The position numbers were made by a program, and so were the translations under genes. The notes below the pieces were generated by a model. The model had not been told where the DNA came from. It worked only from the letters and a program-made list of their open reading frames with translations, and did not search any database. Shown here in pieces: positions 16,223-47,367 of a DNA stretch of 64,000 nucleotides (position 1 is its first letter; each line of letters starts with the position of its first letter). The stretch is from Cyanobium sp. FGCU6 (GTDB lineage: Bacteria > Cyanobacteriota > Cyanobacteriia > PCC-6307 > Cyanobiaceae): assembly GCA_024958655.1 (NCBI GenBank), contig JANWUR010000002.1, forward strand, positions 62,001-126,000, read 5' to 3'.

Positions 16223-17070
16223 TGCCACCCCCCGATACAACGAGCGGATCACCGAACGGCCACCTGTCCGCCCGGGCGCCGGCCGCCCTCGCGCTCGATC
16301 ACATCTCCCTCGCCTTCGGCGGGGTGCGTGCGCTCACGGATGTAAGCCTGGAGGTCAGGACCGGAGAGATCCGTTCGATCATCGGCCCCAATGGGGCGGG
16401 CAAGAGCTCCCTGCTCAATGTGATCAGCGGGGTCTACCAACCCCAGAGCGGTGCTGTGTACATCGATGGTGTTCCCTACCCGCGCATCGATCCGGCCAGG
16501 CTGGCAGCCATCGGCATCGCACGCACCTTCCAGAATCTCGCCCTCTTCGATGGGCTGAGCGTTCTCGACAACATCGCCATCGCACGATCGCCGCGGGGAG
16601 GCGGCGACCTGCTCTCTCAGTTCCTGGCCCTGCCGGAAGCCCGCCGGGCCGCACGGAAGGCCCGGGAAGAAGCCGACGACCTGGTGCAGTTTTTCGGGCT
16701 GGAAACCTATCGCCACCGCAGGGTGGGGAGCCTTCCCTACGGAGCGCGCAAGCGGGTGGAACTGGCACGGGCCCTGATCGCCCGGCCGCGACTGCTGCTG
16801 CTGGATGAACCGATGGCTGGCATGAATCACCAGGACAAGCACGACATGACGCAGTTCATCCGTTCCGCCCGGGATCGGTTCTCGACCACGGTGATCCTGA
16901 TCGAGCACGATCTGAGTGTGGTGATGAACCTTTCCGACCGCATCGCCGTTCTCGACTTCGGCAACAAGATCGCCGACGGCACCCCCACTGACGTCCGCAC
17001 CAACGACGCCGTGATCGCGGCCTATCTAGGTGTTGATCACGACCATCCCCAAGGAGTTACCCAATCATGA
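16222..17070 (+). CDS. Liv-type ABC transporter ATP-binding protein (LivG-like)
   Basis: 282 residues if started at GTG 16222, which overlaps the previous stop by one base; the open frame upstream belongs to the barrel gene. Walker A is GPNGAGKSS, Walker B LLLLDEP, and the signature is the weak LPYGARKRVEL form usual in LivG proteins. The AYLG block near the C-terminus is also typical of LivG. It is the first of five genes of a branched-chain amino-acid/urea/amide-type importer embedded in sulfur genes; the substrate is probably organosulfur, by context only. Confidence 0.85.
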   Translation: MPPPDTTSGSPNGHLSARAPAALALDHISLAFGGVRALTDVSLEVRTGEIRSIIGPNGAGKSSLLNVISGVYQPQSGAVYIDGVPYPRIDPARLAAIGIARTFQNLALFDGLSVLDNIAIARSPRGGGDLLSQFLALPEARRAARKAREEADDLVQFFGLETYRHRRVGSLPYGARKRVELARALIARPRLLLLDEPMAGMNHQDKHDMTQFIRSARDRFSTTVILIEHDLSVVMNLSDRIAVLDFGNKIADGTPTDVRTNDAVIAAYLGVDHDHPQGVTQS

Positions 17071-43509: not shown

Positions 43510-46500
43510 TCAGATCACCGGTGGCAGCTGCTGGATCAGATCGATCTGGCCGCCTTCCGCGAGGTAGCCGCTGCCGCCGATGTTGCCGTCGCGCAGGCTG
43601 TGAGCCTGAACGTTGGCCACGAAGAAGGAGCCGGCCGTGGCTCCATAGAGGTCGGAGACATCGATGATACCCGAAGATTCCCAGTTGCCGAAGTCGGCGG
43701 CGCTGGGATCACTCTGGCCGTAGGCCGTGGGCACCGCGTTGCGGGCGATCTGGGCCCAGCGTTCACTGACGGCCTGACCGGTGACGCTGTCGGTGGCGGT
43801 GGGGCTGAGCTTCCAGATCGAGGCCTCCTGGGCAGCGAAGTTGCTGGCGGCAATCGAGCGATCCTCCTGGACGTAGATGAAACCGTCCTCGCTCCAGGTG
43901 AGGTTGTCGGGAGAGCGGATGCCGCTGGCGGGCTGGGCGAGGCGATCGGCGTCGTAGATGACCTTCAACGCCGTGGTGTTGCTGGCTGCGATCCTGCCTG
44001 CGGCATCGAAGGCCCCTGCGAAATCCAGCGTGATCACGTTGCCGAACAGATCGGCACCACTGCCGCCGGTGGTGGCGAACACGGCCTGCTGACCGTTGGC
44101 CGGATTGACGTGGACATCTTCGAGGCGGATGAGCTGGAGCGCTCCCTTGGAGAACGCCAGATCCTTGAGCTGGGAACCGGAGAGGGCCGCCACCTCGGTG
44201 CCGGAGCCCAGCCGCTGCCAGCTGCCAGCCACGGCCGTACCGAGGGCCAGTTGGTTCAGATCGGCGGAATCGGCAACGCCGATGGTGCCCTCGCGGGTGC
44301 CGATGCTGCCGCCGCTCGGCACCCAGGTGTAAAGACTGCCCTGGGAAGCAGCCAGGCCATTGCGCTCGAGGAAGTTGGCGCCTGGGGCGCTGGACTTCTC
44401 GCCGGCCCACAGATAGATCGGGGCAGTGTTGTCGTCCATCAGCAGCACGGCCACGGTGTCGGGGCTGCCGGTATCGATCAGGGTGCCGTTCTCCCAGCCT
44501 GCGCGACCCAGACCAGGCAGGGACCAGAAGCCACCGGTGGCGGTATCCAGAGCCCACATGCGGCCGACGTTGGAGTTCTCCTCGCCGGTGAGATAGATCC
44601 CGTCGACGAAGCCACGACCATTGCCGAAGCTGTTGGCGCCGACGTAAGTGGATGAACAGAAGCGGCCGAAGCCTCCGCCCTCGACCTGGTTGATGTTGGT
44701 CACCAGAGCACCGTTGGCGTCATAGATCGCCGAGTAGGCGATGCCACCGGAGACAATCGACGACTGGTAGCCATTGCTGGCGTTGTCATCGGTGTCTTTG
44801 TCGACGATGAACTTGCTGATGCGGGCGCCGGTGAGCGCCACGCCGTTCACCAGATAGCCGTAGGCGGCCGTGGACCCCAGTTCGCTGTTCACCAGCAGGG
44901 TGTAGGTGCCGTCACCATTGTCGTAGGCACCCATGCCATCAAAGATGCCGGTGGGGGCATAGACGCTGTCACCGGGGTTCAGACCGTTGGTGAACTCACC
45001 ATTGGTGATCAGGCTGCTGATCGCAAGCTGCGGCCCGCCGGCCACATCGCTGAGCATGGTGCTTTTGAACGTCCCCGCTCCAGCCACCGGTGGTGCAGCG
45101 ATGAGGGCCTCCAGATCGAACACATTGAGGGTGTTCGACACCTCATTGGAGACCACAAGCTGCGGGCGGCGGGTGGGGCTCTGCCAGGCGTCCACGATGT
45201 GGAGACCTTCCGGTGAAACGCTGCCGGAGATCAGCGTGGAGGTGACGAACTGGCCGGCCTTCGGGTCAGTGATGTCGAACACCGCCAGCATGGAGTTCGT
45301 GGTGCGCTCCATGCTCACGATGGCGTAGCTGCGACCCTTGAGCTGGGCGACCACGACGCCTTCGGGTTCCACACCCTTGCTGTCGCTGCGGCCATCGGCG
45401 TAGACACCTGCCGCGAAGGCGATCGTCTGCAGCGTGTTGCCGCTGTCCCACAGCAGGGCGCCGGTGTCCCCATCGAAGACGCTGATGCTGCGGCTGCCGA
45501 AGGTGGTGGCGCGAGCGCCGGCGCCGACGCTGGCATCGTCGGTCAGTGTGCGGACGTTGGGATCAGGGCCATTGCCGGATTCATCCTTGTAACCGGTGTA
45601 GTCGCGGGCATCACCTTCGTTGGCCGTGACAAGGTAAGTCCTGCCGCCAACGCTGTACGCGGCGATGCCATCGGCCATGCGCAGGCCCTCAAAACTCTGA
45701 CCGAGCTTCGGCCTGAAACCACCATCCTTGTCGCTGAGATCAACAAGCTGTCCGGCAAAATCCAGAGCCCCCAGCGGGAAGATAGTCTCAATTCGATAGG
45801 TGAGCAGATTCACCTTGGCTACAGCATTGTTCTCCTGCAGCGTCACGTAGGCATGATTGCCTTGGATGGTCACGTACTCCGGCTCGATGTCGACGGACTG
45901 GCTCGGGGTGCGGCCATCGGGAACGCTGGGTCCGGAGAGGCGGATGCCATCAGGCAGAGGGATGTTGTCGAAACGCAGGTCGGTGTAGCTGAACCGCAGA
46001 TTGCCTCGGCCCTGGATGATGTCGATGATGCCGATGCTGCCAGCCGGATCCCTGCTGGGATCGGTGGCATAGCCGCTGGTCGGTTCCCCCTCATTGGCGA
46101 CCACCAGCTTGGTGCCCTGATTGTTGAAGGCGATCGAATCGGGCAGATGGCCCACCTGCACATCCCGAACCATGGTGAGGGAGCCATTGGTTCCCACCTG
46201 GTAGAAGCGCACCACACCCCTGCCGCCGTTGGTGGCGTAGTCGCTCGGGGAGAGCGCCACCGCAAGCAGGCCGCCGGTGCTTGCGACCGACTGGGAGACA
46301 TAGCCCGTCAGCGACAGGCGTTGCTGCAGGACTGGCCTGCCGGGATCGGTGATGTTGCTCACCTGCAGGGTGTCTCCACCGCCGCTCGACACCACGTACA
46401 ACGCCCCACCGATGCTGATGGTGGTGGAGATTTCGCTCTGAAACTGCTCGCTGGGCGGAGTGGTCGACACCTTCGACAGGTCGAGGCTGCCAAGCAGGGG

Positions 46501-46620
46501 AGCCGGCGGCGGCGGCGTGGGCCTTCCCAGGAAGGCGTTCACGGCCGCCGCTTTCGTGGGAATGACCGGCTGGGTCTTCGTCAGGACGAAGGGGGACCGG
46601 CCAGCCTTGGTGAAAGACAT
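43510..46620 (-). CDS. Two-domain choice-of-anchor I / phytase- or PhoX-like protein
   Basis: 1036 residues from ATG 46620. The N-terminal half (about 45-510) is a beta-propeller of the choice-of-anchor I type, with VANEGEPTSGYATDP, TANEGDARDYTGY and a SMERTTNSMLAVFDI segment. The C-terminal half (about 530-1036) resembles DUF839/PhoX- or esterase-like phytase propellers: NGDGTYTLLVNSELGST, YLTGEENSNVGRMWALD and SPDNLTWSEDGFIYVQEDRS. Such proteins in cyanobacteria are predicted calcium-dependent phosphatases. No ordinary signal peptide is visible at the N-terminus, although the domains suggest export. A candidate Pho box lies about 50-70 bases upstream of the start, which supports a phosphate-stress role. 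Confidence 0.7.
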   Translation of the reverse strand: MSFTKAGRSPFVLTKTQPVIPTKAAAVNAFLGRPTPPPPAPLLGSLDLSKVSTTPPSEQFQSEISTTISIGGALYVVSSGGGDTLQVSNITDPGRPVLQQRLSLTGYVSQSVASTGGLLAVALSPSDYATNGGRGVVRFYQVGTNGSLTMVRDVQVGHLPDSIAFNNQGTKLVVANEGEPTSGYATDPSRDPAGSIGIIDIIQGRGNLRFSYTDLRFDNIPLPDGIRLSGPSVPDGRTPSQSVDIEPEYVTIQGNHAYVTLQENNAVAKVNLLTYRIETIFPLGALDFAGQLVDLSDKDGGFRPKLGQSFEGLRMADGIAAYSVGGRTYLVTANEGDARDYTGYKDESGNGPDPNVRTLTDDASVGAGARATTFGSRSISVFDGDTGALLWDSGNTLQTIAFAAGVYADGRSDSKGVEPEGVVVAQLKGRSYAIVSMERTTNSMLAVFDITDPKAGQFVTSTLISGSVSPEGLHIVDAWQSPTRRPQLVVSNEVSNTLNVFDLEALIAAPPVAGAGTFKSTMLSDVAGGPQLAISSLITNGEFTNGLNPGDSVYAPTGIFDGMGAYDNGDGTYTLLVNSELGSTAAYGYLVNGVALTGARISKFIVDKDTDDNASNGYQSSIVSGGIAYSAIYDANGALVTNINQVEGGGFGRFCSSTYVGANSFGNGRGFVDGIYLTGEENSNVGRMWALDTATGGFWSLPGLGRAGWENGTLIDTGSPDTVAVLLMDDNTAPIYLWAGEKSSAPGANFLERNGLAASQGSLYTWVPSGGSIGTREGTIGVADSADLNQLALGTAVAGSWQRLGSGTEVAALSGSQLKDLAFSKGALQLIRLEDVHVNPANGQQAVFATTGGSGADLFGNVITLDFAGAFDAAGRIAASNTTALKVIYDADRLAQPASGIRSPDNLTWSEDGFIYVQEDRSIAASNFAAQEASIWKLSPTATDSVTGQAVSERWAQIARNAVPTAYGQSDPSAADFGNWESSGIIDVSDLYGATAGSFFVANVQAHSLRDGNIGGSGYLAEGGQIDLIQQLPPVI

Positions 46621-46668
46621 GCACAACGTCAGGAGCTGGGGTCAACCTGCTGAAGCGCCCGCCCCGCA

Positions 46669-46690
46669 GCGTTAAGCCTGACTTAAGGCT
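46669..46690 (-). promoter_or_regulatory. Candidate Pho box upstream of the phosphatase-like gene
   Basis: Read on the minus strand it contains CTTAAGTCAGGCTTAACGC, two CTTAA half-sites with 11-base periodicity, matching the direct-repeat cyanobacterial Pho box pattern (CTTAACCT-N3-CTTAACCT). It lies about 50-70 bases before the ATG. No good -10 element follows, so the evidence is the repeat and the gene's predicted role. Confidence 0.55.
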
Positions 46691-46743: not shown

Positions 46744-47367
46744 CTACCCCTCGTCGGTCGGATCGACGGACGGAAGCGCCCGCCGGGCCGCCCTGCCCGC
46801 CACCCACACACTCGCCACGGTGGCCAGAACCCCCACGATCCGCAGCGCCCAGGTGCCGGCATCGGCCTTACCCGAAAGCACCTCACCGAAGCGGGCCACA
46901 TCACCCGCCAGGGCACCCAGGCCCACGAACAGGATCGTGCCGGGCAGGATGCCGATCAGACCGAGGGTGTAGTCGCGCAGGCTCACCTCGCTCAGCCCGT
47001 AGGCCAGGTTGAGCAGCGAGAAGGGGAAGGCGGGCGAGAGGCGGGTGAGCAGCACCAGCTTCAGGCCCTCGCGGCTCACCGCCTGCTCCACCGCCAGCAG
47101 CTTCGGCACCGCCGCCAGGCGCCGGCGGGCCCAGTCGCGCAGCACGTGGCGGCCGAGCAGGAAGGCGGCCACGGCCCCGAGATAAGCCCCGAGGAACACC
47201 AGCACGCTGCCCATCACCGTTCCATACAGGGCGCCAGCGAGCATCGAGGCCCACACCCCCGGCAACAGCAGGGTGACCCAGAGGGCATAGAGGGGCACGA
47301 AAGCCGCAGCCCCCAGGGGACTGCGCAGGGCCGGCAGCCACGACGACAGCAGGTGCGAAGCGTCCAT
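46744..47367 (-). CDS. TVP38/TMEM64 (VTT-domain) membrane protein
   Basis: 207 residues from ATG 47367; the frame continues upstream inside glnT but is not family-like. Five or so hydrophobic segments, and the VTT pattern GALYGTVMGSVLVFLGAYLGAVAAFLLGRHVLR followed by SREGLKLVLLTRLSPAFPFSLLNLAYGLSEVSLRDY, are visible. DedA-superfamily proteins of this type are thought to be lipid scramblases or transporters. It follows glnT by 28 bases, as the last gene of a four-gene leftward operon. Confidence 0.85.
   Translation of the reverse strand: MDASHLLSSWLPALRSPLGAAAFVPLYALWVTLLLPGVWASMLAGALYGTVMGSVLVFLGAYLGAVAAFLLGRHVLRDWARRRLAAVPKLLAVEQAVSREGLKLVLLTRLSPAFPFSLLNLAYGLSEVSLRDYTLGLIGILPGTILFVGLGALAGDVARFGEVLSGKADAGTWALRIVGVLATVASVWVAGRAARRALPSVDPTDEG

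Follow-up and report, generated by a model that had tools for sequence, protein, structure and literature searches.

A predicted PhoX-fold phosphatase with a choice-of-anchor I propeller and a Pho-type box in Cyanobium sp. FGCU6

Which phosphatases do picocyanobacteria use, and can a protein that family profiles recognise only by its anchor domain be one of them? Picocyanobacteria are described as major primary producers (PMC11098088), and the phosphatases they use decide how organic phosphorus supports them. The question is raised by a large gene in a stretch of 64,000 nucleotides of Cyanobium sp. FGCU6 (assembly GCA_024958655.1, contig JANWUR010000002.1, positions 62,001 to 126,000 of the forward strand), which we call the window. 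We report here that this gene most probably encodes a phosphatase with the PhoX fold that belongs to the cyanobacterial Pho regulon. Family profiles recognise the protein by its choice-of-anchor I domain alone, while its PhoX half stays under the family cut-off; the predicted PhoX fold and the conservation of its Pho box turn it into a concrete and testable phosphatase candidate. One may also ask how cyanobacterial phosphatases of such a size that carry no signal peptide leave the cell, if they leave it at all. The activity of the predicted enzyme, its metals, its export and its response to phosphate are what we infer from the sequence.

Fold and candidate metal site

The protein consists of two halves, and the AlphaFold2 (AF2) models predict a propeller for each of them. 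The N-terminal half is recognised as a choice-of-anchor I domain by NCBIfam NF038117 (314.2 bits for a cut-off of 300, residues 63-493 in ATG numbering) and by Pfam PF22494, whose curated threshold is passed by a wide score (195.8 bits for a cut-off of 32, E 1.7e-57). In the full-length AF2 model, which was built on 14 sequences and has a mean predicted local distance difference test score (pLDDT) of 68, residues 36-510 superpose on YncE (7seu_D) with a VIA Z of 32.2 and a root-mean-square deviation (rmsd) of 2.3 over 290 residues, many propellers being tied at this level. Profile search matched the choice-of-anchor I domain in all 14 full-length sequences and PhoX in 12 of them. Relatives of the domain span many phyla, and most of them match the N-terminal half only. 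A literature search returned no paper joining choice-of-anchor I with alkaline phosphatase, and none of the matches listed for choice-of-anchor domains had a bearing on this protein.

Because the full-length model gave mixed propeller matches, the C-terminal half was modelled separately, with 31 sequences in its alignment, and the resulting model has a pLDDT of 85.6 and a predicted template modelling score (pTM) of 0.90. Its top Foldseek match is the PhoX of Pseudomonas fluorescens (4a9v, E 4e-13), and the next chain follows at E 2e-5. The VIA comparison with PhoX gives a Z of 24.1 and an rmsd of 3.8 over 408 residues, at 18% identity. The PhoX family profile PF05787 matches 30 of the 31 C-terminal halves, our own included, at E<=0.01 (best E 2.8e-14). 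Sequence searches of the PDB with the protein and with two profiles returned nothing relevant, the best match being an alcohol dehydrogenase (1kv9, E 0.37 and 0.17). The first-pass annotation of this locus, made from the DNA letters, had described a large two-propeller protein in which a choice-of-anchor I domain is joined to a "PhoX/phytase-like" half. The two-propeller anatomy is borne out by the profiles and models, and so is the PhoX part of the second label; the phytase part falls, since PF13449 (phytase-like) is absent from the Pfam matches of the protein. A phytase function was thus rejected for it, and the phytase label suits some larger relatives instead.

The C-terminal half carries a set of invariant motifs that resemble the metal site of PhoX. 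In the alignment of the 14 full-length sequences, the positions C655, E680, E681, E710, D729, D730, R832, E834, D835, P904 and D905 are invariant, and so are their equivalents in the 31 aligned C-terminal halves (C129, E154, E155, E184, D203, D204, R306, E308, D309, P378 and D379). This second alignment leaves out two duplicates (L138 and L151) and one locus (L148) in which no C-terminal half was found by pattern. The motifs RFC, GEE, RxED and RxPD are present in all 30 distinct relatives whose C-terminal half was found by pattern (33 loci examined, of which 2 are duplicates and 1 has no match). The genome also encodes a separate, canonical PhoX, above the Pfam cut-off (L060, G000:C61:98356-100122), and a profile alignment with it pairs our RLED with its RPED and our SPDN with its NPDN (probability 64, E 6.6e-5, 125 columns). 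The RFC and GEE motifs, E710 and the DD pair were matched with PhoX motifs by eye. We take Cys179, Glu273 and Glu387 to be the corresponding PhoX residues, in what are presumably the same motifs; a literature search on the names of the PhoX ligand residues gave nothing relevant.

The Pho-type box

The second line of evidence is found upstream of the gene. The first-pass annotation had noticed two CTTAA half-sites at 11-base spacing about 60 bases before the start, and these were found again as CTTAAGTCAGGCTTAA on the minus strand (46672-46687), with units CTTAAGTCAGG and CTTAACGC in the gap that separates the gene from its upstream neighbour. In spacing and consensus they match the SphR box of the literature, which is described as a tandem 8-bp CTTAACCT with a 3-bp linker (PMC1906773). 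The exact pair CTTAA-N6-CTTAA occurs once in the 4.07-Mb genome, where the reversed control occurs 0 and 2 times on the two strands; with two mismatches allowed, the control is even the commoner of the two (712 for 366 CTTAA pairs), and a three-unit CTTAA-like pattern is not enriched in the genome either (15 matches, 15 in the control). We rejected the exact count as a proof of a Pho box, its number standing at the control level, and as this number is uninformative, a half-site matrix was built. The final matrix was drawn from 15 pstS-type promoters of relatives, and all six pstS-type loci of our own genome were left out of it.

With this matrix, the pair score of the target (13.7 bits) is the first of 45 window genes, the next one reaching 10.2 bits. 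This gene set comes from a simple picker of open reading frames (ORFs), and genes with less than 250 upstream bases as well as ORFs without a stop, including the orthologue in L002, were dropped from it. Among the 81 genes scored in the window and in eight orthologue loci (8 orthologues and 73 non-orthologous genes), none of the non-orthologous genes has a pair score as high as that of the target. When the target promoter was compared with its own dinucleotide shuffles, 0 of 300 reached the pair score, and 500 shuffles gave p = 0.002. A box of the same type, with the units CTTGAGCCCCC, CTTAACCGAGG and CCTAACGACCA, stands at -83 in the promoter of one of the genome's own pstS genes.

The box is also kept in front of the orthologues. 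We compared 31 orthologue promoters, our own included, with 500 dinucleotide shuffles each, taking the first ATG of each frame as the start (a GTG for L140, preferred over an earlier TTG). L138 and L151, whose C-terminal halves are identical to those of L004 and L002, and L142, whose N-terminal frame is broken, were left out of the count. At p<0.01, a pair is found in 23 of the 31 promoters, a triplet in 22 and either of them in 26; at p<0.05, a pair or a triplet is found in 30. The best pair lies within -95 to -35 in 30 of the 31 promoters; pairs start at a median of -71 and triplets at a median of -82. The sequences of the units diverge between lineages, for instance CATAATCAACT repeated as a tandem of two in one and CTTAACAAGCT, CTTTGACCGGG and CTTAACCAGCC in another, while the spacing and the place are kept. 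As the orthologues are related, their promoters are not independent events. Taken together, these data support the presence of a tandem Pho-type box before the phosphatase gene.

Some further sites of the genome can be mentioned here as side observations. L075 (G000:C37:60662-61486), which is among the six PstS-type matches, carries a three-unit CTTAA-like box that ranks with one other as the best of the genome, and the other five PstS-type loci have partial boxes at most. Tandem CTTAA-like 11-bp repeats are also seen at G000:C18:21435-21472 and at G000:C20:16623-16649, the latter near several matches to PhoB-like response regulators.

Known phosphatases and competing explanations

The mechanism that we propose would run as follows. 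Under phosphate shortage, SphR (PhoB), a response regulator, would bind the tandem 11-bp box at -67/-56 and turn the gene on. The C-terminal propeller would then cleave phosphate esters at a PhoX-type metal site, probably with iron and calcium, and this site may be built from C655, E680/E681, E710, D729/D730, R832, E834 and D905, on the grounds of fold and conservation. The N-terminal choice-of-anchor I propeller, which two relatives do without, is probably non-catalytic and could aid surface attachment, stability or the capture of substrate. Export, if any, would take a route without a classical signal peptide. That the protein is a phosphate-stress enzyme for the use of organic phosphate, as the first-pass annotation had predicted, is consistent with the PhoX fold, the motifs resembling a metal site and the box at p<0.01 in most orthologues. 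On the whole, that annotation was right on the anatomy and probably right on the function.

Among known systems, the predicted protein is best placed with the cyanobacterial PhoX-fold phosphatases, as a variant with a choice-of-anchor I propeller. Its C-terminal half shares the fold of PhoX (PF05787; P. fluorescens 4a9v and 3zwu), with RxED and PDN aligning with the canonical enzyme. Unlike PhoX, it stays under the Pfam cut-off, is fused to a second propeller and has no Tat-like N-terminus, where PhoX is described as predicted to use the twin-arginine translocation (Tat) system (PMC11098088). Upstream of the genome's own canonical PhoX gene, no tandem Pho-type box was found with a hand-made matrix (best pair 2.3 bits).

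Psip1 of the marine picocyanobacteria (PMC11098088) can be likened to our protein by description: it has a PhoX-like propeller with metal residues like those of PhoX and is encoded by a phosphorus-stress gene, and its Synechococcus forms carry no signal peptide, as is the case here, and are still predicted to be secreted. Some of its cyanobacterial relatives have an added phytase-like domain (PMC11098088). The same paper names R385 and D292 as PhoX residues and reports Psip1 to have Lys in place of the former and no counterpart of the latter. Unlike Psip1 so described, our family keeps an invariant Arg (the R of RxED) and an invariant DD; with a putative equivalence to R385 and D292, set by eye, R832 and D729/D730 in the 14 sequences, and R306 and D203/D204 in the 31, would speak against Psip1. 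One may go further and see here a distinct, Pho-regulated subfamily of Cyanobium-type picocyanobacteria, an iron- and calcium-dependent PhoX-fold enzyme that would reach the cell surface without a signal peptide, use the choice-of-anchor I propeller as a surface or substrate-capture module and play the part that Psip1 has in phosphorus-poor oceans; we find this extension possible, though doubtful.

The atypical alkaline phosphatases PhoAaty (sll0654, the PhoA of PCC 7942, SYNW2391), which have four conserved motifs, are large, Pho-box-controlled cyanobacterial enzymes to which our protein is likened by description only. The box of SYNW2391/2390, at -59, is reported as the first-ranked one of WH8102, and it has the same form as the boxes in front of the phosphatase gene and its orthologues (PMC1906773). 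PhoAaty and PhoX are described as sharing a calcium-binding Pro-Asp motif (PMC4548154).

A further comparison is with L154-L158, five larger proteins from this genus, which share the choice-of-anchor I domain. In these, a phytase-like PF13449 match interrupts the domain, unlike in our protein, where the domain is unsplit and followed by the PhoX-like half only. L154, L155 and L157 have a PhoX-like stretch inside the same gap (mapped by hand), followed by 5'-nucleotidase-type matches; L157 passes the Pfam cut-off with them, and the NCBIfam matches stay far under their own cut-offs. In L158, two PhoX-like stretches come after the split domain, and L156 has no PhoX-like motif. Two other relatives, L164 (a frame of 658 amino acids) and L165 (523 amino acids, with a tandem box upstream of the frame start), have the PhoX-like half without any choice-of-anchor I part. 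As the modules recur in several arrangements, the phosphatase half would seem to be the part that does the work in these proteins.

Several results weigh against the reading of the gene as a Pho-regulated PhoX-fold phosphatase, and we consider them here together with the explanations that they would favour. The first of these is that the C-terminal half has the PhoX fold and is a different hydrolase, for instance a phosphotriesterase, a lactonase or a phosphodiesterase, in which the same propeller and metal site would serve other esters. Propeller lactonases and diisopropyl fluorophosphatase (DFPase) rank just below PhoX in VIA, with a Z of 22-23.5 for alignments of 249-288 residues, and the Sphingobium phosphotriesterase 5hrm is among the Foldseek matches of the full-length model (E 3e-8). 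PhoX being nearly tied with the lactonases by Z, the core propeller is a common one; what sets PhoX apart in the models is the aligned length and the gap in Foldseek E, not Z. Indeed, among the 50 VIA entries listed, alignments of about 400 residues are obtained only with the two PhoX entries, and PhoX is the sole outstanding Foldseek match. The Pho-type box also fits a role in phosphate supply, and the breadth of the PF05787 matches over the family argues in the same direction. We therefore regard a hydrolase of another kind as unlikely.

The second explanation is that the enzyme is real and not Pho-regulated, the CTTAA pair being a chance match. The exact pairs are at a chance level in the genome, and the target box has two clear units, where a minimum of three is described for SphR binding in Synechocystis (PMC1906773). 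By triplet score, the target is second in the window (6.7 bits, with 8.3 for the gene at 17066), and 2 of the 73 non-orthologous genes are above it (8.5 and 8.3 bits). The starting matrix was hand-written from a consensus, and a strong triplet (about -80 to -83) is found in 15 of the 29 pstS-type loci of relatives, the other 14 being left out of the matrix, and in one of our own six. One group of orthologues (L041-L043 and L144), with the closest relative among them, has weak boxes (p 0.01-0.1). The best PhoB-type regulator match in the genome reaches 227.6 bits with TIGR02154, for a cut-off of 296.2. Lastly, the genome scan that the first-pass annotation had proposed, with a rank for this site as the outcome, went the wrong way: the covariance model R1, built on 23 distinct pieces of pstS boxes with two units each (scoring covered 150 of the 189 first-look candidates), recovered in our genome only the pstS site (E 1.3) at E<=10 and missed the target. 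Against a chance match stand the boxes kept in place before the orthologues, the top pair score among the window genes and the 73 non-orthologous genes of which none scores as high. As to whether the pair is above chance, the claim fails for the exact count and is supported by the pair score, and we consider a chance match quite improbable.

The third, a non-catalytic two-propeller surface or adhesion protein with a degenerate PhoX-like half, is suggested by the choice-of-anchor I relatives of many phyla with their N-terminal matches and by PF05787 scores that miss the gathering cut-off of 24 bits (20.9 with the whole protein, 22.9 with the C-terminal half), and it is very improbable because the putative ligand positions are invariant in the 31 aligned sequences, which degeneration would not leave.

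A last point against the preferred reading, that of a Pho-regulated phosphatase, concerns its location. No signal-peptide-like segment was found in the 14 full-length orthologues, our own included, by a crude 12-residue hydropathy scan (not SignalP); the best mean hydropathy is 1.1 in our protein and 0.75-1.7 over the 14. A crude script found no Tat motif (RRx[FGL]) in the first 45 residues of the same proteins. The first-pass statement that no classical signal peptide is visible is thus upheld, which makes an external role no more than a possibility.

Coordinates, neighbours and distribution

The features of the locus are collected in Table 1. An alternative TTG start at 46626 would give a protein of 1038 amino acids, and the stop side of this minus-strand ORF is at 43510.

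Table 1. Positions of the gene, its domains, its candidate metal-site motifs and its Pho-type half-sites in the window
Feature	Position	Strand	Details and basis
Coding sequence, two-propeller predicted phosphatase	43510..46620	minus	1036 amino acids from ATG 46620
N-terminal half, choice-of-anchor I domain, WD40-like beta-propeller	45091..46515	minus	residues 36-510; NF038117, PF22494, AF2 model
C-terminal half, PhoX-fold domain, putative catalytic half	43513..45042	minus	residues 527-1036; AF2, Foldseek, VIA
RFC motif, R653-C655, with a Cys that may bind iron	44656..44664	minus	invariant in 14 and 31 aligned sequences, own included
GEE motif, G679-E681; proposed metal ligands	44578..44586	minus	invariant in 14 and 31 aligned sequences, own included
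RLED motif, R832-D835, with invariant R, E and D	44116..44127	minus	paired with RPED in the canonical PhoX of this genome
SPDN motif, S903-N906, with invariant P and D	43903..43914	minus	paired with NPDN in the canonical PhoX of this genome
Distal Pho-box half-site CTTAA, -67 from ATG	46683..46687	minus	matrix scores, shuffles
Proximal Pho-box half-site CTTAA, -56 from ATG	46672..46676	minus	matrix scores, shuffles

The host genome is assembled in 69 contigs. On the 5' side, the neighbour of the phosphatase gene encodes a VTT-domain membrane protein and ends at 46744, which leaves an intergenic gap of 123 bp in which the CTTAA pair is contained. On the 3' side lie a DUF427 gene and, on the opposite strand, a gene for an NAD-dependent DNA ligase. 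The phage records gave no match to the protein, and the two plasmid matches are distant (27% and 23% identity); a phage or plasmid origin of the gene was rejected on these grounds.

Full-length orthologues are present in 12 of 37 genomes of the same genus, our own included, and the C-terminal half is matched, composite proteins included, in 40 of 300 genomes of the family and in 13 of its 59 genera. The named records with full-length relatives are from Cyanobium and Synechococcus and from a number of uncultured cyanobacteria, to which a single contig under the label Bifidobacterium breve is added. This last contig (L003), titled as a metagenome-assembled genome of that species, carries an orthologue at 62% identity and is probably a mislabelled cyanobacterial bin.

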